16,705 bases of DNA from Thermoplasmatales archaeon SW_10_69_26 (GTDB lineage Archaea; Thermoplasmatota; SW-10-69-26), in assembly GCA_003009755.1 (NCBI GenBank), contig PXUB01000033.1, positions 1 to 16,705 of the forward strand, read 5' to 3'. Positions within the stretch are counted from its first letter, which is position 1; each line of letters opens with the position of its first letter. The position numbers and the translations under genes were made by a program. A model generated the notes under the pieces. The model was not told the DNA's origin, did no database searches, and saw only the letters and a program-made list of their open reading frames with translations. Positions 3,001 through 15,687 of the stretch are shown one piece after another.

Positions 3001-3691
3001 TCGTCTCTCGGTCCGGGTCGATGCAGTTGGACTCGGTCTGGCTGTGGTGGGCGTCGCCGACGAGGACGGGCAGGCCGGGTTCGGCGGTGCCGTCGTCGAG
3101 CAGGAAGGGGGAGAACAGCGCGGTGCCGGCGCCGGTGAGCTGGTCCTCGACCGCATCGGACGTGTCCAGGCCCCAGTCGTTGAGGCGGAGATCGGCGTCG
3201 ATGCCCTCTGCCGTAGCAACCGTGCCGTCGATGCGGTTGAAGTCGAGGACGGCGTCGCCCTCGACCGCGACGAGGGGAGCGGTGGAGCCGTCGGGGTTCT
3301 GGATGGTGAGTTCGGTGAGGCTGACGCCGTCGGCAGCGATGGCAAGCGTCGGATCGGCGGCTCCGTCGCCGTCGAGGATCGTCGAGCTGCGATCGGTGCC
3401 GACGATCTCGACAGGCTTGTCAACGGTGACGGTCTCTGCATAGGTGCCGGCCTCGACCTCGATCGTGTCGCCGGCGGCGGCGTGGTCGACGGCGGCTTGG
3501 AGCGACGCGAAGTCGGCGTCGCCATCGTCGTCGACGACGATCGCGGATCCCTCGTGGCTGGCGGCGGCCGGCGCGGACAGGGCCGCGAGGCCGGCGGTCA
3601 GGAGAACGGCGGCCAGCGCGAGGACGGCGGGCCTGGCGAACGTCGAAGCTGCTGAGCGAGAATCGTTGGCACGCGATCGAGTGCGGTTCAT
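1..3691 (-). CDS. Secreted right-handed parallel beta-helix protein with PKD and cadherin-like Ig domains (3' end outside window)
   Basis: The frame is open from ATG at 3691-3689 to the window edge (1230 codons seen, no stop). A Sec-type signal peptide covers residues 1 to about 44, with a hydrophobic core at 20-40 and likely cleavage after APAAA. Three beta-helix blocks follow (about 50-173, 258-611 and 650-889). Each opens with an 'xxIQAAVDxA' entry and ends in an NDW cap (171-173, 609-611, 887-889). Asn-ladder periodicity supports the fold: N447, N470, N493 and N516 are 23 apart, and N790, N811 and N832 are 21 apart. An Asp-rich Ca-binding-like stretch lies at 235-256. A PKD domain (934-1014, WDFGDGD) and two cadherin-like Ig domains (1015-1115, 1116-1210) follow, and a third begins at 1212. 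Blocks of this kind (NosD/pectate-lyase-like) bind or cleave polysaccharides, or serve as surface scaffolds. I see no identifiable catalytic residues. The start is fixed by GGGAGG 6 nt upstream and by the signal peptide. Confidence 0.95.
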   Translation of the reverse strand, partial: MNRTRSRANDSRSAASTFARPAVLALAAVLLTAGLAALSAPAAASHEGSAIVVDDDGDADFASLQAAVDHAAAGDTIEVEAGTYAETVTVDKPVEIVGTDRSSTILDGDGAADPTLAIAADGVSLTELTIQNPDGSTAPLVAVEGDAVLDFNRIDGTVATAEGIDADLRLNDWGLDTSDAVEDQLTGAGTALFSPFLLDDGTAEPGLPVLVGDAHHSQTESNCIDPDRETTTGGYDADGDGLGDTRWIDKDGDGDEECVFATIQAAVDFAHPDVTVAIPASDGGTLTPNTYDGPATVDRNNCADDTIDCNGNGDDTDETEAERLTGLRICSTSPDPQFEPGEPVLEDPCAANTEQTVVDAEGEEAFTVQVEAEDVTIQGLTIQNSGLSGFGGGIKAREAPGFTLQGSVLEGNVFEDESPAENQRGVQLHPDAGEGYQIGGPDAEDANTFSRWDHAGVAADANAPGTIEGNTFTEITRSAIKAGTDASPTIVENTFETNGLRAISLSGTQDAVVRDNAITLHLLETTDVDGEGSGVWVHDGAQDTLIEANDFEGQDAAAVEVSACGEATCAAETQPDGLRLRENQLNLTNAEALIVNADVEELTVDARLNDWSVYDHELVAQRATDDGSDNVLKLVPFLLPDGSPDPALPIVADTGETYVGVQEAVDAAGPEGTVLLPGSSGVDATPYVESVTIPHEGLRLCAAPGGDACRVANDQVAVQGRATDEPAIRVTADEATVAGLGLEGSTLDTSASAGLLVGDTAKNARVQNVAADGLGTGIQVDGDDAEITANTLTANDVGIAVTGTDVATADNELTANTLAVELDEARRATLANDRVNTGETGGVELAAGEAGVQPTDVTVNNTRLETTTVPLALTSGTQGLTVEATCNDWGAYHRAAIEERILDEGQDNTVEFQPWQGPNPDVTLDNGCLVEPVSSFTYEPEEPTRLDEVQFNDTSRPGSAPIVFHEWDFGDGDTSRMANPTHSYDELGSFEVELTVEDAEGMRSTTTRTVTVGNLAPALEAPIAVESAHEQDLSVNVSASSEEGDAVELSASGTPLEEGATFSVEDQGTAAPVGTLAWTDIDARDRGTYVLEVTARDEHGAETTDQVEITVTDDGPVIEPVPDPTTRLGHEVTFTANATDANGDPVELTASNVPSNATFTVENQTTAEPTATFAWTPTEDSQVGEHNITLAAEAEGLTDTQMVTVTVGEENQPPAIAIERGGSPVGDTVT
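947..1054 (-). repeat. NDWG cap, copy 3 (beta-helix protein)
   Basis: Residues 880-915, 'LTVEATCNDWGAYHRAAIEE' then 'VEFQPW'. It ends beta-helix block 3, after which PKD and Ig domains begin. Confidence 0.75.
1775..1888 (-). repeat. NDW(G) cap, copy 2 (beta-helix protein)
   Basis: Residues 602-639, 'LTVDARLNDWSVYDHELVAQ' then 'VPFLL'. Ser replaces the Gly after Trp. It ends beta-helix block 2. Confidence 0.75.
3101..3202 (-). repeat. NDWG cap, copy 1 (beta-helix protein)
   Basis: Residues 164-197, 'IDADLRLNDWGLDTSDAVED' followed by 'SPFLL'. It ends beta-helix block 1. The next residues, 'DDGTAEPGLP', repeat after copy 2 as 'PDGSPDPALP'. Confidence 0.75.
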
Positions 3692-3697
3692 CGACAG

Positions 3698-3703
3698 CCT
3701 CCC
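3698..3703 (-). promoter_or_regulatory. Ribosome binding site of the beta-helix gene
   Basis: GGGAGG on the minus strand, 6 nt before the ATG at 3691. It decides the start over an in-frame TTG further upstream. Confidence 0.8.
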
Positions 3704-3731
3704 ATGCTGACCGAAAGCCAGCAGTTGCGGG

Positions 3732-3737
3732 TATAAA
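3732..3737 (-). promoter_or_regulatory. Candidate TATA box of the beta-helix gene
   Basis: On the minus strand the sequence reads TTTATA, 41-46 nt before the ATG. It is the most AT-rich spot in this gap. If it is an archaeal TATA box, transcription would start near 3708-3710, leaving a leader of about 17-19 nt that still includes the Shine-Dalgarno. No clear BRE is seen. Confidence 0.4.
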
Positions 3738-3836
3738 CAGCCAGCCCTGCATAAGTGCTGTCCGCCAACCGGGGTAAGCAACACCTTCACGCGACCTGTT
3801 CCCACGTCTACCAGCCGTTGGAGGCGGTGGCGGACT

Positions 3837-3872
3837 GGCCCCGGCCTCCGTCGTTGATGGGAGACCGGGGCC
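3837..3872 (-). terminator. GC-rich hairpin downstream of the S8 gene
   Basis: GGCCCCGG (3837-3844) pairs with CCGGGGCC (3865-3872). After one mismatch, four more pairs follow (3846-3849 with 3860-3863), leaving a 10-nt loop. It starts 17 nt after the stop. No T-tract follows, so it may be a termination or an mRNA-stabilising structure. Apart from this, the gap 3692-3888 holds only the promoter and ribosome binding site of the next gene. Confidence 0.45.
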
Positions 3873-3888
3873 GTGGTGGGGTGGCCGA

Positions 3889-6800
3889 TCAGCCGTCCTT
3901 GTACGGCTGGTAGATCACGTCGTTGCCGTTCTCCTCGAACCGCTGTTCGACGAGCAGGTCGGTGTAGACGCCCCAGTCGTTGTACCGGGCGTCGTAGGTC
4001 AGGCCGTTCGTGGCGTCGGTGAAGGTCAGGCAGACCGACGTGTCGAGGGTGCAGGTGGACGCCCACATCAGCGAGCCCGTGGGGGCTGCTTGGCCGTCGA
4101 CGTCCTCGACGAGGACGCCCTCGTTCAGCTCGTCGAGTTCGACGTGCTCGATCATCGTGCTCGGCGCGGTCACGTGGGCCCCGCGAGCGGTGTCGTTCAG
4201 GCGAACGCCCTGGAGCGAGGTCCCCTCGGCGGCGAGGGTGAGGGCGGTGCCTTGGGGGGCGGTCAGGTTCACGCTCGGCTCCGACAGGCAGCGATCGGCT
4301 GCGTCGGTGCTACCGCACAGCGTCACGCCCGGCGTGTCGACGGTGAAGGGGCCGGTGTAGTTGCCGGGCTCGACCCACACGGTCCCGTCGGTCGGGACGG
4401 CGGCCAGGGCCTCGTCGATCGTCTGGTAGCCCAGATCCTCGGAGGTGCGCGCCGCGCGGGGCACGTCCTCGACAGTGATCTGTACGCTCTCCTCGACCGT
4501 CACGTACGTGTCGTTGGCGCTGAACGTGACGGTGTAGGTGCCGGCCTGGTCGGCGGTGGGTCGCCACGTCAGCTCGCGGGCGTCGGCGTCGAAGGTGGCG
4601 CCCTCGGGCAGCCCGGAGGCGTCGACGGTGAGCTCGGCCTCGGTGTTGTCGCGGTCGCTGACGTCGACGGGGACCCTCAGCGTCGTCATCTCCTCGACCG
4701 TCTGGTCGGGGATGGGGGCGATCTCGGGGGCGCGGTTCTCCACGGTGACGTCGACCGTCGCCCGGGTGCTCGTCGCGCCGTCGTCGTCGACGACCTGCAC
4801 GGTGGCAGCGAAGGTGCCCTGCTGCTCGTAGGTGTGGGTGAGCGTCGGGTCCTCGGTCCGGATGGGATCGGTCCCGTCGCCGGGATCGAACACGTACTCC
4901 GCGATCGAGCCGTCGACGTCGGTGCTGTTCCCGGCGTCCAGCGTGCGCTCGGTGTACGTCAGGTCGCGCTCGGGCGAGACGTCGAGAGCCGCCCTCGGGG
5001 CTTGGTTGAGGACCTCGATGGTGTGCGTGGCGTCGTCGGTGGCGCCGTTGCTGTCCTCGACGGTGAGCTCGACGGTGTAGGTCCCCTGGGCTTCGTAGGT
5101 GTGGTTGACCGTGGCTCCTGTCAGCGAGGTGCCGTCCCCCATCGACCACCGGTAGCTTTGGATCGCACCGTCGGGGTCCTGGCTGTCGGTCGCGTCGAAC
5201 GTGGCCGGCGTGAAGGTGGCGATCTCGTCGGGAGCTTGGACCGCGGCCGTGGGTGCGAGGTTCTCCGCGACGATCTCGACGGTGTCGAGGGTCGACCAGC
5301 GGCCGTCGTCGTCTCGAACGGTCAGCGTGGCGTTGTACGTGCCGGGCTCGGTGTAGTTGTGCTCGATCGTGGCCGCATCCGTCGTGACGGAGCCGCTGTC
5401 GTCGCCGGGGGTGAACCGGTAGGTGGTCACGGTCCCGTCGGGGTCCGCGGAGGCGGAGCCGTCGAGGGTGACCGTCGTGTTCATGTCGGTCGTCGTCGGC
5501 GAGGCGTCGAGGACGGCGTCGGGTGCCGTCGTGACGGTGACGTCGTTGCGCGTGGGTCCGTTCATGTCGAGCCCGTCGAAGTAGCGGGCCTCGATGCCGA
5601 CGTCGCCCTTGGACGAGCTGGCGTCCCAGTCGTAGGTCCAGGTGGCCCACGAGCCATTGGGGCCGGTGGCGGTGGCCGGTCGCCAGTCCTCCTCGGCGCC
5701 TAGCGATTCGTCCGCGGTCTCCTCGCGGAACTCGACATAGCGATCGCCGACGGCGGCGACGTCGGTGGTCGCGGTGTCCTGTCCGGCGTCGTTGGTGGCG
5801 GTGACGTTGACGTCGTAGCGCCCGGGCTCGGTGTAGGCGTGCGTGACGGTGCTGTTATCGGTCGTCGTCAGGGTCGACCCGTCCCCGAACTCCCACTCGT
5901 AGGTGACCGGTGAGGTGCCCTGCGAGAGGTTGACGGTGAAGTTCACGGGTTGGTCGACGTCGGCTCGCGAGGGGTCGGCCGCGAACGACTGGATGCGCGG
6001 CGGCTCGTTGTCGGCGACGTTGTCGACGGCGAACGCGACGGTGTCGCGCACCTGGTCGCCGTCCTGGGTCGTGTAGAGAGCGCTCGCGGAGTAGTCGCCG
6101 TCTCCGACCTGGGTGCTGTCCCAGCCCGTGGACCAGCTCTGCACCCCGTCGGCGTCGGTCGGGCCGAAGACGGTCTCGCCGTCGGCCAGCCGGGTGACGG
6201 TCACCTCGACGCGTTCGTCGGTCGTCTCGGCTTCGGGGGTGGCGGTCACCGTGTCGGAGGTCGGGCCTTCGACGCCGTCAGCGACGGCGCTGACAGTGTA
6301 CCCGTAGGATTGGCCGTTGATGACGTCCGTGTCGGTGTAGCGGGTCTCGGTGATCTCGGCGACCTGGGACCCATCGCGGTAAACGCGGTAGTCTTCGGCG
6401 CCGTCGACGGGCGTCCAATCGAGGTGGACCTGCTCGTCGCCAGCGGTGGCCTCGAGGCCGGTGACTTGGGCGGGCGCGGTCGGCTCGGTGACCTCCGGCA
6501 CGGTCAGGGACCAGGGGTTGTCGGGACCGCCGCCGAACACGGCGTGCGGCGGGCCGAAGTAGGCGTCCAGCTCCTGCGAGGAGTCGAACGTGATGGCGAG
6601 CTGGAGCGTGGAGCCGGCCGCCAGCGTAGTCGGCGCACCCGAGTCGAACGTCAGATCCACCATCCAGGGGTACTCCTGGAAGGTCAGCGGGCCGACCGTG
6701 GCGCCGGTCTCGCCGACCGCGCCAGGCTCGCTGGCGGTACCGACCTGAGCGGAGACGTCGATCGGGGCCAGCGCGCAGTCCCCGCACGGGAAGCCCGAGA

Positions 6801-9800
6801 CGCCGGTGCGGACGGAGACGGTCTCGCCGGCGGCGATCTCGAGGTCGCTGTCGAGCGTGGTGGTGAACACCATCTCGAGGGGTTCCTCGGTGCAGCCGAA
6901 CGCGGTGTGCGAGGCGCTCTCGCCGGTCGGCTCGGTCTCGGTCAGCGGTCCCTGCAGCCCGGTGCAGCTGTCCGTTGCGCCGCTGCGCTGCTGGAGCGTG
7001 GCGAGCACGTCGTCTGGGTGGAAGGTGCGCGGCTCGACGGTGCCCACCGATCCGTCGTCGATGCTGTCGGTGAACGGCAGGGTGAGCTGCCAGCTGTCGG
7101 TTTCCTCGCCGCGAAGGTCCACGCTGTTGTCGTCCTGCGTTCGGTAGGTCACGACGACGTCGACGGCGGCGCCCTTAGGCACTGTGCCGTCCCAGTCGTC
7201 GTCGACGAGGACGTCGAACGTGACGGTGTTGGGTTGTTGGGCGATGAAGTTGGCCGTCGTGGAGCCGCTTGCTCGCTTCTGCCCGTCGACCAGCACGTCG
7301 AGCTGGATCTCAGCCTCGATGTCGGCCGGGGCCGAGAACGTGAGCTGGGCCTGCCCGACCCCGCCGGGTCGCACGAGCAACTCCTGGCTGGGAGCCGGGA
7401 GCAGCGGGAACGTGTCCGTGCCGTCGCCGGCGACGCTGATTGACGTGGAGCCACCGGCGTTGCTCTCCGGATCGTCCTCGTCGGCGCTGGTCCACTGCGA
7501 GTCGATCGTGCTGTCGCCGTCCTCGTCGCGTAGGTGGAAGAACAGCGTGTCCTGGCTGGGGCTGGGTTCGCCGCCGGCGTGGCCGTGGGCTTGCACGGTC
7601 ACCGTGTCCGCGACGGTGGAACCGTCGAGGAGGGTGGCCGTGAGCGTGAGCTCGTGGGTGCCGGGCTCCTCGTAGACGTGGTCGAGCACCGCGGGCGGGG
7701 TGCCGAACCCGGTGAGGCTGGTGCCGTCCCCCCAGTCGACGCGCCACTCGGTGATGGTGCCCTCGGTGTGGGTCCGGATCTGCGTGGAGAGCGGCGCCTT
7801 GCTCTCGGTGGGCGTGAGCGGTTCGACGAGGATGCCGCCCTCGCTCGTGGTCGACGTGGAGTCGGCGCTCGTCGGATCCTCGGCGGTGCCGGCGATCGTG
7901 ACGGTGCCATCGACGGTCTCGTCCTGGGCGGGCGTCTCGATCGTGACCGACGGTCCGGGGGTGTCGGCCTCGTTGTTGACCGTGACGCCAACGACGTCTT
8001 CGTCGGTTGTGGAGCCGGCGGTGACCCGCGCGGTGATGGAGGTGTCGCCGTCGTCGGCCTGCGTCGTATCGAAGGTGGCCGACCAGTCGGCGGTCGCGTC
8101 GACCGTCTTCGTGCCGAGCTCGGGGATCTCGACGGTGACCTGGCCCTCGGAGGCCTCGGGGCTGACGGTGACATCGGTGCCGGCGGGAGCCTGGCCGGTG
8201 TCGGCGGGGCCGCTGGCGCCGTTGGCGCCGAGGGACACGATGCCGAGCAGATCGGTCAGCCTCTCGCCGTCCTGGACGGAGTTGCCACCGGAGTCCTGGA
8301 TCGCGGTCTTGGAGACGTTGAAGGCGACGAGGTCGTCCTCGGGCGCCCAGTAGCCATCCACGTACTGCTCGAAGCTCCACTGGCTGGCGGCTTCGCCGGG
8401 CGCGGGCTCGGCGCGGGTCAGCAGCCGGAACTCGGGGGTCAGGTTCGTGTCCTGGTTCTCGGCGCTGAAGACGGGGTTGATCTTGCTATCCAGCCAGAAC
8501 TCCTGGTCGGCGTAGCTGAACTGCACTCCATAGCGCAGATACTCGGCGTTCGTCGGTTGCTCGGGGAGGTCTGCGACCCCGATCCCGAGGTTGAACCGGT
8601 CGTCGCTTGGCCCCTCGTCGCCCCAGGCGTACCCGGCGACCATGTCGGCGCGGTCGAGCGGGAAGCTGCCGGCCCCGAAGAGGCTGGCGTCGCCCTCGGG
8701 GTCCGTCCACAGCGGATCGTCCAGCGACAGCGAGGGGTCCGGCGAGGGAACGTGGGCATCCCCGGTGACGGTCAGGTCGTCGGACACGCTTGCGCCGTCG
8801 TCGGGCTCGGTGATCGCGACGGTCAGGTCGTCGGCGACGGTAACTGTGGTCGTGTCGGTGGCTTGTTGGTCGTCGGCGTCGGTGACGGTGAGCGTGACGT
8901 CGTACTCCCCGGCCTGCGTCCAGGTGTGCGCGATCTCGGCGCCGGTCTTCGTGTTGTCGTCGCCGAGCTCCCACTTATACGAGTACTCGGGGGTCCCGCC
9001 GGAGGCCGAGGCCGACAGCGTCGTCTCGACGTCGGGCGCGGTCTCGTAGGGGCCACCCGCGTCCGCGGTGAACGCGTCGTCGGGATCGTAGCGATCGCGG
9101 GCCTCCTGGACGGCGAGGTAGGCGTCCACGTTGCCGTAGCCGACGACGGGCGCCCACTGCCCGGTGGGCTCTTGGTCGCCAACGTGGGCCGTCTGCGTGA
9201 GGATCTCCTTGACCTCGGTGGGTGTGAGGTCGGGGTTGGCCTCGTACATGAGAGCGACGACGCCGGCCACGATCGGCGCTGAGAAGCTGGTGCCGCTCGA
9301 GCACTCGTTGTAGGCGTTATCGTTGGCGCTGGTGGGCATGGCCACGCAGACGCCGGGAGCCATGACCTCGGGCTTGTCGATCGTGGTGTCGGAGGCGGCC
9401 ACGCTGCCGGAGGCCCCGCAGGGGGAGATCCAGCCCTTCGCGAACCCGCCGGCACCGTGGCAGGGGACGTCGTCGATCCGGGAGACGCTGTTCAGGGTGT
9501 CGATGTTGCCGACGGTGATGGCTCGCTCGGCGGTCGCCGGGGAGCCCATGGTGCCGAAGTTGCCCGAGGAGGTGACGACGACGAGGCCCTGCTCGGCGGC
9601 CTGGTTGATGCACGTGTCGTCGGCGCTGCTGATGGGGACGACCGATCCGTAGCTGAGGCTCGCGACGCGGATGTCCGCCGGGTGGTCGATCGTCTTTTCC
9701 AGGGCCTCGCAGGTGCGCGTTGCAACGGTTCCCGTGTTCGGGTCGGGCTCGGACAGGGCCTGCACGTTCAGGACACCGGCCGCGGGCGCCGCGCCCACGT

Positions 9801-12800
9801 GGGTGGCGGAGGGGCCGCCGGTGCCGGCGGCCGCGCCCGCGCTCTTCGTGGCGTGCGCGGCGTTGGACTCGTGGTCGAAGATCGCCAAGCGGTCGATGAT
9901 CTTGGAGTCGCTGGCGTTCTGTGTCTCGTTCGCGAAGGTCTGCCACTCGAAGGCTTCGTGGGATTCGCGTACGCCGCTGTCGAAGTTGGCGTAGCCGACG
10001 TCGCGACCGGTGAAGCCCAGGCACTCGCTGGCGCCCCAGACGCACTCAGAGCCGTAGGTGGTGGATTGGCGGGCCTTGGTGTTGGGCACGTTGAGGGCCA
10101 GGTGCTTCTCGGCAGGCGGGGACCACTCGACGCGGATCGCGCCGTCGTGGTCCAGCAGGTCCCGCACGTTCTCGGCTTCGACGCCCTCCAGGGTGACGGC
10201 GTCGATCAGCCACAGAGCCTTGGCACGGTCGGCGTCGGCGAGATCGCCAAGCGCCTGCTGGTCGTCCTCGGTCGCCTCACGGTCGAGCAGGACCTTCACG
10301 TCGAAGGGGCCCGAGGAGGAGTCCATCTCCTCCTCGAGGGGATCCTGCACGCCATCGCGGTCGGCGTCGTCGTCGAACGGGAGCGTCCACATGCCGGCTT
10401 GCGTGGTGGACGTGGACCCGTCGTCGGTCGAGCCGTCTTGGCCCGATCGGTCGCTGGTGGTGCCGTTGACGGCCACGGTCTCGGGGTCGAGGAAGGCCCC
10501 GTCGGCGGGCTCGTCGATCTCGACGGGCCCGCTGTCGGTGACGAGGACGGTCACCTCGTCGGGCGGCGAGGTCTGCGATCCGTCGTAGTACTCGGCGGAG
10601 ATCGTGACCTCGGTCCCGTCGGCGATGGACGAGAAGTCGTGGTCGAGGTGCCAGTCGCTCCAGTCGCCGCTATCGTCGACGGCTTGCTGGAGGGGGCCAT
10701 CGGCCACGCGCACGTAGACGCCCTCCTGCTGGGGTCCGACGTCGATCGTCGTGCTCGCGGTCGCGGAGCGGTCGCCGGTGTCGGTGACGGTGAGCTCGGC
10801 GTCGGCGTTGAGCTCGCTCTCGTAGGTGTGGTTGACGGTGAACGTGCCGTCGTTGTTCAGCGGAACGTCGAGAGGGGCTGAGCCGTCGCCGGGGTCGAGC
10901 TGGACGGTGTCGATCGGGTCCGAACCGGGGCTCACCTCGCCGGTGAACGTCACGGGTAGCGGAGCGTTACCGGTCGTCGGGTCGGCTGCGAACGCCGCGA
11001 CCGTCGGCGGGTCGGCCTGCTGTGCGTCTTGCAGCTGGTAGTTGCGGCCGGTATCGGAGGAGGATGTTGGCGGAACCGTTTCCTCGGGGCCGCCGCCCGG
11101 AGCGCGGTCCACGGTCGGAAGCACGCTGACGGGGCTGGGCGCCCCGGGCACGCGCATCCGGGACTGGAGGTAGGGCTCGGTGAGACGGTCGCCGACCTCG
11201 AGCGCGTCTCCACCGAGGGCCCCTTCCCAGGCGTCGAAGGGGATCGTGGCGGTGAGGGTGTCGTCTTGGATCTCGACCTCGAACCCGCCTTCGACCTCCG
11301 CCCACCCGGCCCCCTGGGCACCGCAGCCCAGGCAGTAGGCGGAGGCGCTGAACGAGGGGTTCTGGGCACCGTCGGAGAGGATCCAAAGCCCCAGCGTGCG
11401 GCTCTCGTGCTCGAAGTTGAACTCCCACTCGGCCGCGGAGGAGCCGGGGTGGGGCAGTGCCGGATCGAACCCGTGCACGTCGACCGTGGCGGTCAGTGAG
11501 GAGCCGTCGTTGGCGAGGAAGGCGTTCTCGAGGTCCATGCTGCGGTAGGGGTCGGGCAACTCGGCGGGGTCGTCCTCGGCGAGGACGCGGAACCCGTCAG
11601 CGTTGCCGCTGTCGTCCCCGTCACCTTGGCTCGCATCCGCGACCGGCAGCTCGATGTGCGAGGGCGTGGTCGGGCTGTCGTAGTACACGCTGTAGGCGGG
11701 GCCGACGTTCGCGTATTCGACCCAGAAGCGGAGCTGGAGCTCGGCGCCCTCGTCGACGACGATGTCGCCATCATCGTCGGTGGGAACGGTGAGGTTGCTG
11801 GTCGACTCGTCGTACTCGGAGCCGTTCAGGACCTTCTCGTAGTTCTTCCCGAGCTTGAGCGGGATCGAGGCCTCGGTGGGGATCTGGTTGGGGAACGGAC
11901 CGTCGTCGGTGTACGTGGAGGCCAGCGTCACCGTGCCGCTGTCCGTGACGGCGTTCAGTTCGGCGTTGAGGCCCTTCACGAATACGGTGTTGCTCCACGT
12001 GGAGATGTGGAGGTTGGCGGTGGCCTCGTCGACGGTGTCGGGGTCATCGTCGCCGAGATGGAGCTCCTGGGCGAGAGGCCCGCTGTCGATCTGGAGGGGC
12101 AGCGTGTCGAGGCTGCCGCTGTGGACGGTCGGCGCCTCGCCGTGGGGCTCGGCGGTCGAGAGGTCGCCGCCCGCGACGCCGAGGTCGCCGCCTTCGATCG
12201 TGGCGGGCGCCGTCAGCTCGGCGCCGTCGGCGTCGGGTGCTCGGTCGTCGGGGGTGAGCCCGTCGGCCGAGGCGGTGTAGGATGTGACATGTAGGTTCGT
12301 GATGGGATCGCCAGGGGAGGCGCCGATCTCCGTCCACGGGATGGTGACGGTCACGGCGTCGTCGGCGAGGTCGGCGGTCACCGTGGCACTGGTGTCTGCA
12401 TCGACGGCGTCGGTCACCGTGGGTCCGTTCGCGCCGAGCTGCACGGCGTACCGGTGGGCTTGGCCGGCGTGCTCGAAGGCGAGATGCCAGGCGGTCGGGG
12501 CCAGGCGGGCGTCCTCGACGTCGCCGGCGAGGTCGGCGGTGACGTCCAGCGTCTCCTCGTCGGTGGCGGTCCCGAGGCTTCGGATGTCGGCTTCGCTCGT
12601 GGATGCGTCTCCGGCGTCGTCGGTTGTTGCGGTCTGCGTGAGGTCGCCGTCGACGCGGGCGTCGAGTGTGAGTTGGGACCGGTAGAGGTCGGAGCCGTCC
12701 CACTTGAGCCGAGTGGCCTCGCTCCCGGCGAAGAAGTCCGGCGTGAGGCCGACCATGATCTTGTTGCCCTGCTCGAAGGTGTAGGAGTCGGCGCCGGAGT

Positions 12801-15687
12801 GCTGGTAGGCCAGCCGGTTCTGCATGCAAGCGCCGTCGACCGGGTCGTTGTCGAGGAGGGTGGCGTTCGCGTACTCGTTCCCCGGGTTGCTCAACGCGAG
12901 CTGGCTCTGGCCGTCACTGATCTCGTACACGTCAGCGAAGAACAGGCCACCGCCGCTGTCGGCGATGCAGGTCGTGAGCGAGGCGCCTTGGGCGACCGTC
13001 CAGGGGTTGCCGTCGGTGTCGGTGATCGTCTCCACACCCTGGGCCAGCGTGATGTCCGCGGGCAGGGGCTCGGAGACGAAGACAGCCGGGTGCTCCTCGA
13101 CGACGTCAGCCTCGTCGGCGAAGGTCTGCTGGGCGATACCGCTGAGGCCACCGCCGACGAGCGCGTTCTTGGGATCGTTGCCCGGCGTGGGGGACATGGT
13201 GCCTTTGACGGTGTAGGCGTCGTCCGGAGCCGGTTCGGGCGCGTCGGCGAGCGTGCCGTTGTGATAGTGGAAGCCGATCGTTCGGGTCTCGTCCGTGGGC
13301 GTCACGCATTCCTCGACCGTGTTGGTGTCCGTGGCGCCGGTGCTGTCCTGGGTGCGAACCGCGAAGCAGGTCTCCTGGCCAGCGGTCAGGCCGTCGACGG
13401 TCGTGGAGAGGTCGGTCGTCTCCTGGATGGCGGTTTCGTAGTCGATCTCGGGGGTGCCCTGGTAGACGAGATACGTGTAGGGCTGTTCGCCGCCGCTGGC
13501 CTCGTCCCATGCGAGCTCGGCCGTGGTCTGCTCGGCCTCGGCGGTCTTGGCGGTCTGGAGGCCCGCGAAGGTTTGCGGGGTCGTGTCGGAGCCGCCGGAA
13601 CTGCCGGCCGTTCCGGCGATCCGCGTCTCGCCGGACACGCGATCGCCCTCGCTCGGGGTCGTGATGGAGACCGAGGGGGCCTCGACGTCGCTGCCGACGG
13701 TCGCGGTCGTTGTGGCGGTAGCGGTGGTGCCGGTGTCGTCGGTGACGGTTAACGTGACGTCGTAGACCCCCGATTGGTCGTAGGCGTAGGTGAAGCTTGC
13801 ACCGGTCTCCGTGGTCCCGTCACCAAGGTTCCAGGTGAACTCGTAGGGGGAGTCGCCATTGCTGGCGGTCCCGGTGAACGCGATCTCCTGGCCGGTCGCG
13901 GCGGTGTACGGGCCGCCGGCGTCGGCGGTGAGGGAGGTGGCCAAGCCGCAGACCTCTGTCACGGTCGTCGAGGGCGTGGCTCCGTTGGGCTGGAGGACGT
14001 TGGCCCAGGCCCAGCAGAGCGCGCCGAAGGCGGAGACCTCGCCGTAACCGAACCCGTTGTTCCACGTCAGTCCGTCGGCGCCGGGTCCCTCCCACTTGTC
14101 GATCATGTCGTCGGGGACGCCAGCCGTCCGGTAGTCGGCGGCGTGGATGAGGGCGTCGCGGACCGGATGCTCGCCCGGCACGTGGTCGCCGTTGTTGTCG
14201 AAGCCGCGTCCGTCGGGCTCCATCAGGTTCTCGCCACCGGTCTCGTCGCTGACCTCGGCACCGGCCTGCAGCAGGAGGGCCGAGATGCCCGCGACGTGCG
14301 GAGTAGACATGCTCGTCCCCGTCTTCTCGGTCCGTGTGCTGATGGCGCCACATTCCGTGATGGCGCAGGCCGCCTCGATATCGGTGCCCGGGGCGGTGAT
14401 GTCGGGCTTGCGGTGACGGTCGGCGAGATCATCAGCGCCGGTGGCACCACCGGCAGCGCCGTCGCCGCCTCCGCCCTCGCTGTTGGGTCCCCGGCTGCTG
14501 GAGGGGTTGATCCGGTCGTCGATGCGCGAGATCGTGGAGCGATCGTCGGCGTTCGCGACGCCGAGGGCGCCGGCGGCGTTGCCGGGGCTGGAGATGCCGT
14601 TCTCCTTGTCCCCGAAATCGCACAGGCTGGAGGGCTGGGGACCGCAGTTGCCGACGGCGATCGTGACGGCGACGCCCTGCTCGGCCAGGTTCGTGATCGC
14701 GGACTCGGCGCTGCCGGCGTTGGGGCCGCCGCGACCTGCCGAGCCGAAGCTGAGCGTGGCGACGTTGATCTTGTCGTCTTCGCTGGCGCCGCACTTCGGC
14801 TCGCCGTTCTCGATGGCCTGGTTCCACTCGTGCACGAACTCGAAGCCGCGGAGCGAGCCGCCCAGCGAGACGATGCCACCGCTGATCTCGACCTCCACGA
14901 GCTGGGCCTCGGGCGCGGTCCCGCCGGCCGCCTCAGCGGGGTTGCCGACGGCGGTCGAGGCGACGTGGGTGCCGTGGCCGGAGCGGTCCTGGTTGTCGAC
15001 GCACTCGATCGTCTGCGGTGTCGAGACGTCGGCTCCCGCGACCCGCTTGCCGCTCGGGAAGGCCGGGTTGGTGTTGTCGACGCCACTGTCGAGCACCGCG
15101 ACGACGGAGCCTTCACCCTGGTATCCCAGCGTACCGGCGGTTTCGCCGGCGTAGGGGCCCTCGAGTGCGCCAGCGTCCCGGGACTGGGTCGCCGGTGCGC
15201 TGACGTCGAGCGTGCGGTTGAGTTCGTAGTCGTGCTCCACGGCGACGACGCCGTCGAGGTCGCCCAGCGCGCCGACTTCGTCGGCGGGGACTTGGGCGTT
15301 GATCGTCGGGATGAAGCTGAACCGATAGGTCTCGACGGCCCCGTGGGAGGAGGCGAGGCGGTCGACGTCGGTCTTCGTCGGATCGTGGTCGTAGGTGAGC
15401 AGGACGGGGACGAGCTTGTCGGGGTTCCCGTCATCGACGTGCCCTTGGGCGATGGCCTCGGCTTCGTCGTCGACGAGGTTGTCGTCCTCGTCGAAGGCGT
15501 CGAGCCACGGTCCGACCCAGTCGGGGGCCGAGCCGCCGCTCGTCGTGGCGGCGGTACCGGTCGGGACCACGGAGGTCAGGGGTCCCGCCAGCATGGCGAC
15601 GGCGAGGAGCACGGGGAAGAGAGTCGTTTCCGAGAGCTTAGCAGCCGATCCGACGACGCTGGAGAACTGTGTGAAGCGATCGCTCAA
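3889..15687 (-). CDS. Giant secreted protein with two S8 (subtilisin-family) peptidase units and many beta-sandwich modules
   Basis: This complete gene encodes 3932 aa. Signal peptide about 1-46. Unit 1: propeptide-like 91-158 and S8 domain about 188-560 (D200, H238, N347, S459). PKD domains lie at 585-664, 1556-1650, 2206-2286, 2617-2700, 3229-3314, 3389-3475, 3478-3560 and 3563-3650. FnIII domains lie at 703-797 and 3070-3152. Three DOMON/CBM9-like modules (1023-1170, 1355-1535, 2323-2503) and four related unassigned beta-sandwiches (803-1008, 1190-1348, 2713-2873, 2905-3066) alternate with them. Unit 2: propeptide-like 1794-1860 and S8 domain 1876-2196 (D1903, H1945, N2043, S2134). A cadherin-like Ig (3651-3742) and a beta-helix segment with NDWG cap (3745-3932) end the protein. 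No membrane anchor or sorting signal is seen. The start is TTG: GGGAGG lies 8 nt upstream, no in-frame ATG, GTG or TTG lies between it and the upstream stop, and the first internal Met (M32) would destroy the signal peptide. It should act as an extracellular endopeptidase; the substrate is unknown. Confidence 0.97.
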   Translation of the reverse strand: MSDRFTQFSSVVGSAAKLSETTLFPVLLAVAMLAGPLTSVVPTGTAATTSGGSAPDWVGPWLDAFDEDDNLVDDEAEAIAQGHVDDGNPDKLVPVLLTYDHDPTKTDVDRLASSHGAVETYRFSFIPTINAQVPADEVGALGDLDGVVAVEHDYELNRTLDVSAPATQSRDAGALEGPYAGETAGTLGYQGEGSVVAVLDSGVDNTNPAFPSGKRVAGADVSTPQTIECVDNQDRSGHGTHVASTAVGNPAEAAGGTAPEAQLVEVEISGGIVSLGGSLRGFEFVHEWNQAIENGEPKCGASEDDKINVATLSFGSAGRGGPNAGSAESAITNLAEQGVAVTIAVGNCGPQPSSLCDFGDKENGISSPGNAAGALGVANADDRSTISRIDDRINPSSSRGPNSEGGGGDGAAGGATGADDLADRHRKPDITAPGTDIEAACAITECGAISTRTEKTGTSMSTPHVAGISALLLQAGAEVSDETGGENLMEPDGRGFDNNGDHVPGEHPVRDALIHAADYRTAGVPDDMIDKWEGPGADGLTWNNGFGYGEVSAFGALCWAWANVLQPNGATPSTTVTEVCGLATSLTADAGGPYTAATGQEIAFTGTASNGDSPYEFTWNLGDGTTETGASFTYAYDQSGVYDVTLTVTDDTGTTATATTTATVGSDVEAPSVSITTPSEGDRVSGETRIAGTAGSSGGSDTTPQTFAGLQTAKTAEAEQTTAELAWDEASGGEQPYTYLVYQGTPEIDYETAIQETTDLSTTVDGLTAGQETCFAVRTQDSTGATDTNTVEECVTPTDETRTIGFHYHNGTLADAPEPAPDDAYTVKGTMSPTPGNDPKNALVGGGLSGIAQQTFADEADVVEEHPAVFVSEPLPADITLAQGVETITDTDGNPWTVAQGASLTTCIADSGGGLFFADVYEISDGQSQLALSNPGNEYANATLLDNDPVDGACMQNRLAYQHSGADSYTFEQGNKIMVGLTPDFFAGSEATRLKWDGSDLYRSQLTLDARVDGDLTQTATTDDAGDASTSEADIRSLGTATDEETLDVTADLAGDVEDARLAPTAWHLAFEHAGQAHRYAVQLGANGPTVTDAVDADTSATVTADLADDAVTVTIPWTEIGASPGDPITNLHVTSYTASADGLTPDDRAPDADGAELTAPATIEGGDLGVAGGDLSTAEPHGEAPTVHSGSLDTLPLQIDSGPLAQELHLGDDDPDTVDEATANLHISTWSNTVFVKGLNAELNAVTDSGTVTLASTYTDDGPFPNQIPTEASIPLKLGKNYEKVLNGSEYDESTSNLTVPTDDDGDIVVDEGAELQLRFWVEYANVGPAYSVYYDSPTTPSHIELPVADASQGDGDDSGNADGFRVLAEDDPAELPDPYRSMDLENAFLANDGSSLTATVDVHGFDPALPHPGSSAAEWEFNFEHESRTLGLWILSDGAQNPSFSASAYCLGCGAQGAGWAEVEGGFEVEIQDDTLTATIPFDAWEGALGGDALEVGDRLTEPYLQSRMRVPGAPSPVSVLPTVDRAPGGGPEETVPPTSSSDTGRNYQLQDAQQADPPTVAAFAADPTTGNAPLPVTFTGEVSPGSDPIDTVQLDPGDGSAPLDVPLNNDGTFTVNHTYESELNADAELTVTDTGDRSATASTTIDVGPQQEGVYVRVADGPLQQAVDDSGDWSDWHLDHDFSSIADGTEVTISAEYYDGSQTSPPDEVTVLVTDSGPVEIDEPADGAFLDPETVAVNGTTSDRSGQDGSTDDGSTSTTQAGMWTLPFDDDADRDGVQDPLEEEMDSSSGPFDVKVLLDREATEDDQQALGDLADADRAKALWLIDAVTLEGVEAENVRDLLDHDGAIRVEWSPPAEKHLALNVPNTKARQSTTYGSECVWGASECLGFTGRDVGYANFDSGVRESHEAFEWQTFANETQNASDSKIIDRLAIFDHESNAAHATKSAGAAAGTGGPSATHVGAAPAAGVLNVQALSEPDPNTGTVATRTCEALEKTIDHPADIRVASLSYGSVVPISSADDTCINQAAEQGLVVVTSSGNFGTMGSPATAERAITVGNIDTLNSVSRIDDVPCHGAGGFAKGWISPCGASGSVAASDTTIDKPEVMAPGVCVAMPTSANDNAYNECSSGTSFSAPIVAGVVALMYEANPDLTPTEVKEILTQTAHVGDQEPTGQWAPVVGYGNVDAYLAVQEARDRYDPDDAFTADAGGPYETAPDVETTLSASASGGTPEYSYKWELGDDNTKTGAEIAHTWTQAGEYDVTLTVTDADDQQATDTTTVTVADDLTVAITEPDDGASVSDDLTVTGDAHVPSPDPSLSLDDPLWTDPEGDASLFGAGSFPLDRADMVAGYAWGDEGPSDDRFNLGIGVADLPEQPTNAEYLRYGVQFSYADQEFWLDSKINPVFSAENQDTNLTPEFRLLTRAEPAPGEAASQWSFEQYVDGYWAPEDDLVAFNVSKTAIQDSGGNSVQDGERLTDLLGIVSLGANGASGPADTGQAPAGTDVTVSPEASEGQVTVEIPELGTKTVDATADWSATFDTTQADDGDTSITARVTAGSTTDEDVVGVTVNNEADTPGPSVTIETPAQDETVDGTVTIAGTAEDPTSADSTSTTSEGGILVEPLTPTESKAPLSTQIRTHTEGTITEWRVDWGDGTSLTGFGTPPAVLDHVYEEPGTHELTLTATLLDGSTVADTVTVQAHGHAGGEPSPSQDTLFFHLRDEDGDSTIDSQWTSADEDDPESNAGGSTSISVAGDGTDTFPLLPAPSQELLVRPGGVGQAQLTFSAPADIEAEIQLDVLVDGQKRASGSTTANFIAQQPNTVTFDVLVDDDWDGTVPKGAAVDVVVTYRTQDDNSVDLRGEETDSWQLTLPFTDSIDDGSVGTVEPRTFHPDDVLATLQQRSGATDSCTGLQGPLTETEPTGESASHTAFGCTEEPLEMVFTTTLDSDLEIAAGETVSVRTGVSGFPCGDCALAPIDVSAQVGTASEPGAVGETGATVGPLTFQEYPWMVDLTFDSGAPTTLAAGSTLQLAITFDSSQELDAYFGPPHAVFGGGPDNPWSLTVPEVTEPTAPAQVTGLEATAGDEQVHLDWTPVDGAEDYRVYRDGSQVAEITETRYTDTDVINGQSYGYTVSAVADGVEGPTSDTVTATPEAETTDERVEVTVTRLADGETVFGPTDADGVQSWSTGWDSTQVGDGDYSASALYTTQDGDQVRDTVAFAVDNVADNEPPRIQSFAADPSRADVDQPVNFTVNLSQGTSPVTYEWEFGDGSTLTTTDNSTVTHAYTEPGRYDVNVTATNDAGQDTATTDVAAVGDRYVEFREETADESLGAEEDWRPATATGPNGSWATWTYDWDASSSKGDVGIEARYFDGLDMNGPTRNDVTVTTAPDAVLDASPTTTDMNTTVTLDGSASADPDGTVTTYRFTPGDDSGSVTTDAATIEHNYTEPGTYNATLTVRDDDGRWSTLDTVEIVAENLAPTAAVQAPDEIATFTPATFDATDSQDPDGAIQSYRWSMGDGTSLTGATVNHTYEAQGTYTVELTVEDSNGATDDATHTIEVLNQAPRAALDVSPERDLTYTERTLDAGNSTDVDGSIAEYVFDPGDGTDPIRTEDPTLTHTYEQQGTFAATVQVVDDDGATSTRATVDVTVENRAPEIAPIPDQTVEEMTTLRVPVDVSDRDNTEAELTVDASGLPEGATFDADARELTWRPTADQAGTYTVTFSANDTYVTVEESVQITVEDVPRAARTSEDLGYQTIDEALAAVPTDGTVWVEPGNYTGPFTVDTPGVTLCGSTDAADRCLSEPSVNLTAPQGTALTLAAEGTSLQGVRLNDTARGAHVTAPSTMIEHVELDELNEGVLVEDVDGQAAPTGSLMWASTCTLDTSVCLTFTDATNGLTYDARYNDWGVYTDLLVEQRFEENGNDVIYQPYKDG
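3892..4005 (-). repeat. NDWG cap, copy 4 (extreme C-terminus of the S8 protein)
   Basis: Residues 3895-3932, 'LTYDARYNDWGVYTDLLVEQ' then 'VIYQPYKDG' and stop. It is closest to copies 2 and 3. It closes the short beta-helix segment 3745-3890, which has the same entry pattern ('YQTIDEALAAVPTDGTVWVE') as the neighbouring gene. Confidence 0.8.
5527..5742 (-). repeat. Ig-like half-domain B2 (closing strands)
   Basis: Residues 3316-3387: 'RYVEFREETADESLG', 'GSWATWTYDWDASSSKGDVG', 'IEARYFDG', 'NDVTVTTAP'. It most resembles B1 (YYDG and YFDG). It follows a PKD domain and has no opening half nearby. Bracket matching pairs it with A2. Confidence 0.5.
6019..6216 (-). repeat. Ig-like half-domain B4 (closing strands)
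   Basis: Residues 3158-3223: 'RVEVTVTRLADGETVFG', 'SWSTGWDSTQVGDGDYSAS', 'DTVAFAVDN'. This is a textbook closing half, located right after FnIII domain 2. Confidence 0.6.
6490..6975 (-). repeat. Unassigned beta-sandwich module, copy 4
   Basis: Residues about 2905-3066, closing with 'LAAGSTLQLAITFDSSQELD' and 'NPWSLTVPEV'. It contains 'FPCGDCAL' (C2967, C2970), a CxxC pair. FnIII domain 2 follows directly. Confidence 0.45.
7069..7551 (-). repeat. Unassigned beta-sandwich module, copy 3
   Basis: Residues about 2713-2873. It opens with 'TLFFHLRDEDGDSTIDSQW', resembling the FHYHNGT start of copy 1, and closes with 'VPKGAAVDVVVTYRTQDDN' and 'DSWQLTLPF'. It follows a PKD domain. Confidence 0.45.
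7882..7953 (-). repeat. Ig-like half-domain A4 (opening strands)
   Basis: Residues 2579-2602, 'PSVTIETPAQDETVDG' then 'TVTIAGTA'. It is followed by a Ser/Thr/Asp linker, a PKD domain, two unassigned beta-sandwiches and FnIII before the closing half B4. Confidence 0.6.
7972..8175 (-). repeat. Ig-like half-domain B3 (closing strands)
   Basis: Residues 2505-2572: 'GQVTVEIPELGTKTVD', 'DWSATFDTTQADDGDTS', 'ITARVTAGS', 'VVGVTVNN'. This is a typical closing half with the WxxxxDTTxxxDGxxxIxA signature, placed directly after the DOMON-like insert. Confidence 0.6.
8179..8721 (-). repeat. DOMON/CBM9-like beta-sandwich module, copy 3
   Basis: Residues about 2323-2503: 'DDPLWTDPEGDASLFGAG', 'YLRYGVQFSYADQEFWLDSK', 'LVAFNVSKTAIQDSGGN' and 'ADTGQAP'. 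It has the DPxGDA opening and xxGQAP/DRAP close of the family and is the most aromatic-rich copy. It sits as the only insert between Ig halves A3 and B3. Confidence 0.5.
8755..8826 (-). repeat. Ig-like half-domain A3 (opening strands)
   Basis: Residues 2288-2311, 'LTVAITEPDDGASVSD' then 'DLTVTGDA'. It is followed by a short Pro/Ser/Asp linker and a DOMON-like module. The closing strands (B3) come only after that module, at 7972-8175. This is the cleanest case of one domain inserted into one Ig fold. Confidence 0.6.
9100..10062 (-). other. S8 peptidase domain 2 (divergent His motif)
   Basis: Residues about 1876-2196. The Asp motif is 'YANFDSGVRESH' (D1903). The His motif is 'NAAHATKSAGAAAG' (H1945), in which the usual HGTH reads HATK. 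The oxyanion Asn is in 'SSGNFG' (N2043) and the Ser motif is 'GTSFSAPIVAG' (S2134). All four key residues are present, so activity is possible. Eight Cys (1882, 1889, 1993, 2026, 2076, 2090, 2114, 2129) again suggest disulfides. The domain is clearly different from domain 1, so this is not a recent tandem copy. Confidence 0.92.
10108..10308 (-). other. Second propeptide-like domain, before peptidase unit 2
   Basis: Residues 1794-1860 ('FDVKVLLDREATEDDQQALG' to 'IRVEWSPP'). Size and layout match an I9-like propeptide: strand, helix, 'WLIDAVTLEGVEAENVRDLL', then a final strand before the catalytic domain. Its presence in mid-protein implies that the second protease came in as a complete proenzyme. 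A thrombospondin-3-like Asp stretch (D1772, D1774, D1776, D1778, D1782, E1785) lies just N-terminal and may bind Ca2+. Confidence 0.65.
10456..10527 (-). repeat. Ig-like half-domain A2 (opening strands)
   Basis: Residues 1721-1744, 'PVEIDEPADGAFLDP' then 'ETVAVNGTT'. It is followed by a Ser/Thr/Asp linker, the TSP3-like site, the second propeptide and peptidase 2. No closing half is found before about residue 2505. The balanced partner is B2, about 1570 residues downstream. Confidence 0.55.
10534..10725 (-). repeat. Ig-like half-domain B1 (closing strands)
   Basis: Residues 1655-1718: 'GVYVRVADG', 'WSDWHLDHDFSSIADGTEV', 'SAEYYDG', 'DEVTVLVTD'. These match the C-terminal half of the same Ig module (veVxvdDG...WxxxWDtt...DGxyxixAxxxDG...DxVtVxVxn), but no opening half lies directly before it; a PKD domain does. 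Confidence 0.55.
11083..11625 (-). repeat. DOMON/CBM9-like beta-sandwich module, copy 2
   Basis: Residues about 1355-1535, with 'YRSMDLENAFLANDGSSLTA', 'WEFNFEHESRTLGLWIL', 'TLTATIPFDAWEGALGGDAL' and 'PTVDRAPGG'. A 'YCLGCG' pair (C1452, C1455) may form a local disulfide or a metal clip not seen in copies 1 and 3. Confidence 0.5.
11644..12120 (-). repeat. Unassigned beta-sandwich module, copy 2
   Basis: Residues about 1190-1348, ending 'VDEGAELQLRFWVEYANVG' and 'TTPSHIELPVA'. The opening differs from copy 1 ('LPLQIDSGPLAQELHLGDDD'), so the relation rests mainly on the closing strands. Confidence 0.4.
12178..12621 (-). repeat. DOMON/CBM9-like beta-sandwich module, copy 1
   Basis: Residues about 1023-1170. 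Pattern: 'DDAGDASTSEADIRSLG', a long strand 'ETLDVTADLAG', 'AVTVTIPWTEIGASPGDPIT' and a terminal 'DDRAPD'. The 'IPWxxIGxxxGDxI' and 'DRAP' ends are shared with copies 2 and 3. Folds of this type usually bind carbohydrate or haem; no ligand can be assigned here. Confidence 0.5.
12664..13281 (-). repeat. Unassigned beta-sandwich module, copy 1
   Basis: Residues about 803-1008. It opens with 'TIGFHYHNGTLADAPEP' and closes with 'FEQGNKIMVGLTPDFFAGSE' and 'SQLTLDA'. The close (xxxGxxxxVxxT...S.LtL) is shared with three other stretches of the protein. Function unknown; it probably forms a structural or binding beta-sandwich. Confidence 0.45.
13603..13677 (-). repeat. Ig-like half-domain A1 (opening strands)
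   Basis: Residues 671-695, 'PSVSITTPSEGDRVSG' then 'ETRIAGTA'. This is the N-terminal half of the common bacterial Ig module (pattern VxIxxPxxGxxVxGxxxIxGTA). A Ser/Gly/Asp/Thr linker and an FnIII domain follow, not the expected closing strands. Its proposed partner is B1 at 10534-10725. Confidence 0.6.
14008..15126 (-). other. S8 peptidase domain 1 (canonical motifs)
   Basis: Residues about 188-560. The Asp motif is 'VVAVLDSGVD' (D200), the His motif 'SGHGTHVAS' (H238), the oxyanion Asn 'VGNCG' (N347) and the Ser motif 'GTSMSTPHVAG' (S459). All are intact, so activity is expected. Eight Cys (229, 299, 348, 356, 441, 446, 558, 580) suggest disulfides in an exported enzyme. A Gly/Asp-rich loop at about 403-420 precedes the 'KPDITAPG' motif and looks like a lineage-specific surface insertion. 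Confidence 0.95.
15214..15417 (-). other. Propeptide-like (I9-type) domain of peptidase unit 1
   Basis: Residues 91-158 of the giant protein. The pattern is 'KLVPVLLTYDHDP', a helix with Asp and Leu, a central 'YRFSFIPTINAQVPADEV' strand and 'LDGVVAVEHD' just before the mature domain. This is the usual order of subtilisin I9 intramolecular chaperones, which fold and inhibit the protease and are then cleaved. The assignment rests on pattern and position only. Confidence 0.75.

Follow-up and report, generated by a model that had tools for sequence, protein, structure and literature searches.

The giant protein P0001, encoded on the minus strand of the window (the whole stretch of DNA analysed here, a contig of 16,705 bases from a genome of 2.8 Mb with 70% G+C), very probably harbors four split Ig-like domains of the Big_7 family (PF17957), each opened at the loop between strands B and C by inserted modules, which include a whole subtilase zymogen; this is considered to be the best explanation of the evidence as a whole. 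The split halves and the constant point at which they are parted can be read directly from the sequence, as can the exchange of inserted payloads when relatives are compared.

P0001 corresponds to an open reading frame at window positions 3889 to 15687, with a TTG start and 3,932 amino acids (ORF list and sequence), and is, as judged from its sequence, a giant secreted protein with a signal peptide at its N-terminus. Its domain content, based on Pfam and sequence inspection, comprises two subtilase domains, many PKD domains, and a C-terminal beta-helix fragment. Two stretches match Peptidase S8 (PF00082; E 7.5e-60, Pfam), and both subtilase copies contain the DSGV, HGTH/HATK, and GTSxSxP motifs which carry the Asp, His, and Ser residues. 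Half-domain profiles were derived from 61 aligned uninterrupted Big_7 domains of the same phylum, cut at the B-C loop, i.e., between strand B (..GTA) and strand C (VxxVEVxID). The features concerned are listed below with P0001 residue numbers, where G002 denotes the orthologue, G128 a relative, and scan rank the position in the unbiased scan, all of which are detailed in the following paragraphs.

3889..15687, minus strand: P0001, with signal peptide, subtilase 1, PKD, nested Ig region, PKD array, He_PIG, and beta-helix fragment (ORF and Pfam).
13606..13680, minus strand: opening half A1 (strands A-B), residues 670-694; 24.5 bits with the half-A profile, positions 1-25 of 25; scan rank 2.
10726..13605, minus strand: A1-B1 insert, residues 695-1654, with fn3-like domain, DOMON-like beta domains, and PKD (sequence and Pfam).
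10534..10725, minus strand: closing half B1 (strands C-G), residues 1655-1718; 9.6 bits with the half-B profile; A1 and B1 joined, 47.2 bits over profile positions 1-88; Pfam Big_7, 27.7.
10456..10530, minus strand: opening half A2, residues 1720-1744; weak alone; scan rank 4; the A2 of G002 scores 8.9 bits and is 52% identical.
5743..10455, minus strand: proposed A2-B2 insert, residues 1745-3315, with subtilase zymogen, PKD, split domains 3 and 4, and PKD, as the order of the halves suggests.
8992..10395, minus strand: subtilase 2 zymogen, residues 1765-2232, with acidic loop, propeptide-like region, and S8 catalytic domain (Pfam Peptidase_S8, 1903-2171).
8755..8826, minus strand: opening half A3, residues 2288-2311; half-A, 12.1 bits; scan rank 3.
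8152..8754, minus strand: A3-B3 insert, residues 2312-2512, one DOMON-like beta domain with 43% identity to G002.
7972..8151, minus strand: closing half B3, residues 2513-2572; half-B, 20.2 bits (35.2 in G002); A3 and B3 joined, 43.6 bits.
7882..7956, minus strand: opening half A4, residues 2578-2602; half-A, 24.0 bits; scan rank 1.
6217..7881, minus strand: A4-B4 insert, residues 2603-3157, with PKD, beta domains, and fn3 (sequence; PDB fn3 match for 3087-3164).
6019..6216, minus strand: closing half B4, residues 3158-3223; half-B, 9.9 bits; A4 and B4 joined, 53.6 bits; Pfam Big_7, 31.6.
5527..5742, minus strand: outer closing half B2, residues 3316-3387, directly after a PKD; 5.0 bits alone (18.9 in G002); homologous to half Bx of G128; A2 and B2 joined, 22.5 bits in the window and 43.3 bits in G002 with the phylum-specific Big_7 profile.

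The first-pass annotation had placed four opening and four closing halves between positions 671 and 3387, which are residues of the minus-strand ORF, and all eight are present in P0001. Its description of these halves as never adjacent holds in that no opening half is joined to its closing half, the intervening gaps amounting to approximately 960, 1571, 200, and 555 residues for pairs 1 to 4, respectively; it does not hold for B1-A2 and B3-A4, which directly adjoin one another in the order B then A, at distances of approximately two and six residues. The start of B3 is probably located near residue 2513, as the sequence at 2503-2512 resembles the end of the insert. The proposed constant insertion point was borne out, since every A half stops at GTA, GTT, or GDA, i.e., the end of strand B, at which position a loop of approximately three to eight residues is found in uninterrupted domains.

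In 300 shuffles of P0001 the top scores reached 7.1 bits with the A profile and 4.1 bits with the B profile, A2 being the weakest of the opening halves. With the B profile, genuine PKD domains score up to approximately 10 bits, and the scores of B1, B4, and especially B2 are, therefore, not safe when taken alone. Because of this PKD background, an unbiased scan was performed in which every 32-residue piece of the protein was joined to B3 or B4, and 68-residue pieces (every second start) were combined with A4 or A1. When B3 or B4 was held constant, ranks 1 to 4 of all 32-residue pieces went to the four A halves; with A4 or A1 fixed, B3, B1, and B4 occupied ranks 1 to 3, and B2 ranked sixth or fourth, amid a PKD-like background above which its counterpart in the G002 orthologue clearly rises. 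All four joined pairs cover the whole phylum-specific profile, with which an intact Big_7 copy in the G002 orthologue scores 55.3 bits. Against the Pfam Big_7 model (cut-off, 24.1 bits), joined A1B1 and A4B4 pass and A3B3 falls just below (23.3 bits); joined A2B2 gave no Pfam Big_7 match, and neither did two B halves submitted to Pfam alone. The solved relatives of the intact domain (3PE9, 3PDD, and 9KVU) align over its full length of approximately 90 residues, such that a lone A or a lone B represents just part of a known sandwich. That the B segments are instead divergent PKD-like or fn3-like tails would accord with the PKD scores and with the position of the window B2 within the PKD background; every B, however, is preceded by a PKD, fn3, or insert domain that is complete in itself, and unambiguous closing halves are found in B3 (20 bits, and 35 bits in G002) and in the relatives G012 (42 bits), G128 (By, 63 bits), and G005 (inner B, 46 bits), which makes this reading very unlikely.

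The orthologue in G002, a genome of the same class and another family, is a collinear frame of 3,989 amino acids to which P0001 residues 586 to 3745 align at 43.7% identity, with an unrelated domain (residues 1 to 520) in place of the N-terminal subtilase of P0001 and the nested core retained. All eight halves and the insertion point are conserved therein, and the linkers which follow the GTA differ in length and sequence between the window and G002, being rich in Gly, Ser, Thr, and Asp in both. Among 389 genomes of the phylum, a strong match to the A3-B3 insert was found in G002 only, and the unique part of the A1-B1 insert and the beta part of the A4-B4 insert were likewise confined to the window and G002, weak matches aside. 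The degenerate state of A2 and B2 in the window, along with the repeat-rich nature of such genes, would fit a scenario in which Ig domains were disrupted by recombination between repeats and now persist as relics whose halves no longer fold together. The halves are, however, 31 to 54% identical to those of this other-family orthologue, which is the level of the neighboring domains; strand patterns and cut point are kept in both halves of each pair, other classes included; and a matching half located hundreds of residues away would not be retained in a relic. Disruption of this kind is, therefore, regarded as very unlikely.

The claim that a whole protease had been inserted is corroborated by the standalone subtilases of the phylum, whose alignment with P0001 (1765-2281) begins at residue 1765, directly behind the signal peptides of the standalone proteins. 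The aligned stretch includes the acidic loop, the propeptide-like region, and the catalytic domain, and in one of these proteins (L131) also a PKD; the insert, thus, represents a whole zymogen without a signal peptide. The Asp, His, and Ser motifs and that of the oxyanion Asn are present in the sequence of subtilase 2, which is, therefore, likely to be active.

Relatives identified by name belong to Thermoplasmatota, and the simplest arrangement among them occurs in G012 (JAQUQK01, isolate STD1_48). Its protein on contig C30 (L105, also designated L132) contains, in order, a PKD, an A half (344-367, 35.4 bits), the linker ADGSTGQQGDFNNDG, an S8 domain, a DOMON-like domain, a PKD, a B half (1095-1152, 42.4 bits), an intact Big_7 (1158-1253, 93 bits), and a caspase-like domain. 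A single orphan A and a single orphan B are present, enclosing the S8, DOMON-like, and PKD domains and scoring 85.6 bits when joined, and pairing across the subtilase is, therefore, the sole way in which the domain can be completed. This case also bears on the possibility that B1-A2 and B3-A4 of P0001 each constitute one circularly permuted Ig domain, with A1, A3, B4, and B2 as leftovers, for which the short B-to-A distances given above could be cited. Adjacency of B then A is, however, expected from any row of such domains, and permutation would leave four conserved halves unpaired; in G012 the orphan B precedes the intact Big_7, and the A approximately 730 residues upstream, across the subtilase, is the one partner left free for this B. 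The inner B halves of G128 and G005 precede a PKD and not an A. We accordingly view permutation as highly improbable and favor domains split at the B-C loop.

In G128 (contig C76, L181), the order is S8, Ax, insert, Ay, S8, DOMON-like, fn3, By, PKD, and Bx, a half order of A A B PKD B, with Ay, By, and Bx scoring 20.3, 62.8, and 18.9 bits and Ax being weak (6.6 bits). The joined Ay and By, which enclose the S8-to-fn3 segment, score 82.4 bits, and Ax joined to Bx scores 36.7 bits. The C76 sequence is divided between two overlapping frames which are shifted relative to each other and were each read unaltered; the split lies at approximately nucleotides 3870 to 3960 of the reverse strand and may reflect an assembly error or a real shift. 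The fn3-By-PKD-Bx segment is homologous to fn3-B4-PKD-B2 of the window (3070-3476; E 2e-25), and the payload beneath this homologous closing cassette differs, being a subtilase in the inner domain of G128 versus PKD and beta domain(s) in the window.

In G005 (contig C285, L104), an A half (12.4 bits) is followed by a trypsin-like region, a second A, a beta domain, a B (45.6 bits), a PKD, and a weak B, the inner pair scoring 45.0 bits when joined. The trypsin-like motifs TAGHC, DAGLI, and GDSGS are located at approximately residues 280 to 480 of the minus frame, after an A half; this region yielded no Pfam or PDB sequence match, and a trypsin-like protease probably occupies the slot, as its motifs indicate. 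Outside the archaea, the cultured gammaproteobacterium Fontimonas thermophila (L140) carries a possible split domain around an S8 domain, whose joined halves score just 16.1 bits. The order at residues 93 to 912 of its ORF, namely, A, S8, beta domain, and B, is that of the archaeal G012 protein, and this organism would be a good laboratory subject. Among gammaproteobacterial relatives of Fontimonas, a search revealed no further clear nested case, viral contigs contained uninterrupted Big_7 copies only, plasmid records gave PKD-level matches only, and the first contig scan with the subtilase 2 region found nothing. In most cases the S8 type seen nested in G012 and G128 occurs freestanding, with a clear Big_7 half at 1 of 21 named loci (G012) and Fontimonas as a weak further case. 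A search of relatives for the same Ig domain without an insert showed that intact Big_7 copies are abundant in the phylum and occur also within split-domain proteins (G002, 3892-3985).

Taken together, the joined-profile scores, the conservation in G002, and the relatives' half-domains around other payloads agree with the first-pass proposal of a loop which repeatedly accepts insertions, and these sequence comparisons support the B-C loop as a recurrent insertion site with exchangeable payload. As relatives hold different proteases in the same loop, it resembles a reusable slot for enzyme display on a rod.

The most likely nesting places the A1-B1 domain first, followed by an A2-B2 domain which would enclose subtilase 2, a PKD, the A3-B3 and A4-B4 domains, and a second PKD. 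The A2-B2 bracket is the weakest of the four pairs and is suggested only by a process of elimination and by the order A A B PKD B, which G128 and G005 share. The caution of the first-pass annotation that balanced order by itself is weak support is shared here, given that 14 of the 70 possible orders are balanced for the window; the corresponding chances are 2/6 for G128, 2/6 for G005, and 1/2 for G012, and their product of approximately 0.011 is a guide only, as the proteins are partly related. Neither profile scores nor conservation rank discriminated between partners. Since profile scores are additive (A4 joined to B2 also reaches 44.8 bits), A4-B4 and A4-B2 are not distinguishable by score, and the same split domains could have crossed partners, e.g., A2 with B4 and A4 with B2. 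Such crossing would, however, require two domains to be threaded through each other, and the A A B B order is found again in G128 and G005, whose cleanest halves are those of the inner pair (82.4 and 45.0 bits); crossed partners are, therefore, considered unlikely.

The Ig fold of the halves was taken from solved uninterrupted relatives and not from models. AlphaFold2 run on the single sequence of residues 2282 to 2610 (A3, B3, and A4) gave a pLDDT of 38, and for the nested region of G012, with 15 sequences, pLDDT was mostly 80 to 95 for the subtilase and approximately 31 to 58 for the Ig halves. A Foldseek search with the G012 model returned subtilisins as the closest solved structures. An alignment of uninterrupted domains onto A3 to B3 was discarded as folding input, as strand B was wrongly assigned to residues 2503-2512 or the halves were dispersed.

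Based on the nested arrangement, we propose that each A half (strands A and B) folds with its distant B half (strands C to G), and that the module between them hangs sideways from a linear PKD/Ig rod via a linker rich in Gly, Ser, Thr, and Asp. The two ends of each insert would lie close together, as expected from the Ig fold, and a payload attached at two neighboring points would leave the rod continuous and the enzyme facing outward. The same loop has been filled repeatedly, here by a subtilase zymogen, beta domains, fn3, and PKD and in relatives by other proteases, and the slot has been refilled with the closing cassette kept and the payload changed. The likely role of P0001 would be that of a secreted or surface-held multiprotease scaffold with its catalytic modules on side branches. 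Should subtilase 2 cleave its own propeptide, the chain would break inside A2-B2, and the paired halves would have to hold the pieces together. A broader view, in which the B-C loop is a general payload slot in secreted proteins of the Thermoplasmatota, used repeatedly and with nesting on as many as two levels, and the split Ig serves as a clamp after self-cleavage of the zymogen, is offered tentatively, and we consider it rather doubtful.

Several observations concern the surroundings of P0001 and its paralogue. The downstream gene (window positions 2 to 4066, minus strand) encodes its own signal peptide, a beta-helix (NosD-like), and PKD domains, and the C-terminus of P0001 is a short piece of the beta-helix unit of this gene (NDWGVY...), as if cut from one. 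Window positions 1 to 1169 match the end of contig C34 of the same genome at 90 to 100% identity, and the two contigs end at the same position, which indicates that the assembly breaks at duplicated PKD/beta-helix genes. Contig C34 (32776-47530; L042/L043) carries a second giant, an open frame of 4,918 amino acids running off the contig, with the signal peptide of P0001, two subtilases, the second of which belongs to another S8 type, and a single intact Big_7. In this paralogue the opening halves are weak, and no bracket order could be read. Unannotated beta domains which open with a Y/F-[LFY]-H motif (e.g., FHYHNGTL, LFFHLRDEDG, YYLHRSS, and LYFHST) occur at window positions 13200-13290 and 7480-7560 and also at L104, L132, L152, and L181, as payload or neighbor in these giants.

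These proteins add a recurrent example from nature in which whole enzymes sit in an Ig loop, and the uninterrupted copies which they also carry can serve as internal controls; the occurrence of two payloads with one closing cassette (window versus G128) provides a way to study domain insertion and swapping without breaking the fold. The Big_7 loop suggests a ready-made site for enzyme display on protein rods, and the linear domain annotation of giant archaeal proteases, in which such halves are otherwise overlooked, is corrected. A literature search found no report of a protease or subtilase in a Big_7 or Ig-like loop, or of payload exchange there, and a subscription paper may exist.

Among known systems, the lipin/Pah proteins form an Ig-like domain from N- and C-terminal parts which are 250 to 500 residues apart in yeast Pah1 and human lipins, Tt Pah2 being a natural version with a short linker (PMC7066176). 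Unlike P0001, lipin encloses a linker region and not a protease, has one split domain without nesting, and is unrelated in sequence; no lipin-type HAD catalytic domain with N-Lip/C-Lip halves was found among the Pfam matches of P0001, and the likeness is that of a split Ig only. In integrin beta, the betaA (VWA) domain is inserted in the Ig-like Hybrid domain (PMC3585415), which similarly places a functional insert in an Ig-like domain with both insert ends together on a stalk, but within a eukaryotic receptor, with a ligand-binding insert instead of a protease and a fixed architecture instead of an exchangeable payload. The pilus adhesin RrgA of Streptococcus pneumoniae, in which D3 lies within D2 and D2 within D1, D2 being described as non-Ig-like and closed by an isopeptide bond (PMC5333627), shares with P0001 the balanced nested insertions in an elongated prokaryotic surface protein but has an adhesive payload and no Big_7. 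No Pfam VWA match was obtained for a payload in a split domain, and the likeness to integrin and RrgA is, thus, architectural. Closest are the bacterial and archaeal Ig domains of Big_7 itself, along whose length joined pairs 1, 3, and 4 match; domains of this family are otherwise uninterrupted and have a few residues in the loop, whereas in P0001 this loop is opened by 200 to 1570 residues. The S8 subtilases of the Thermoplasmatota are homologous standalone secreted zymogens, whereas the P0001 copy has no signal peptide and is located inside an Ig loop. Split Ig domains and nested insertions are, therefore, already known, to which the present case adds proteases in a Big_7 loop with payload exchange.
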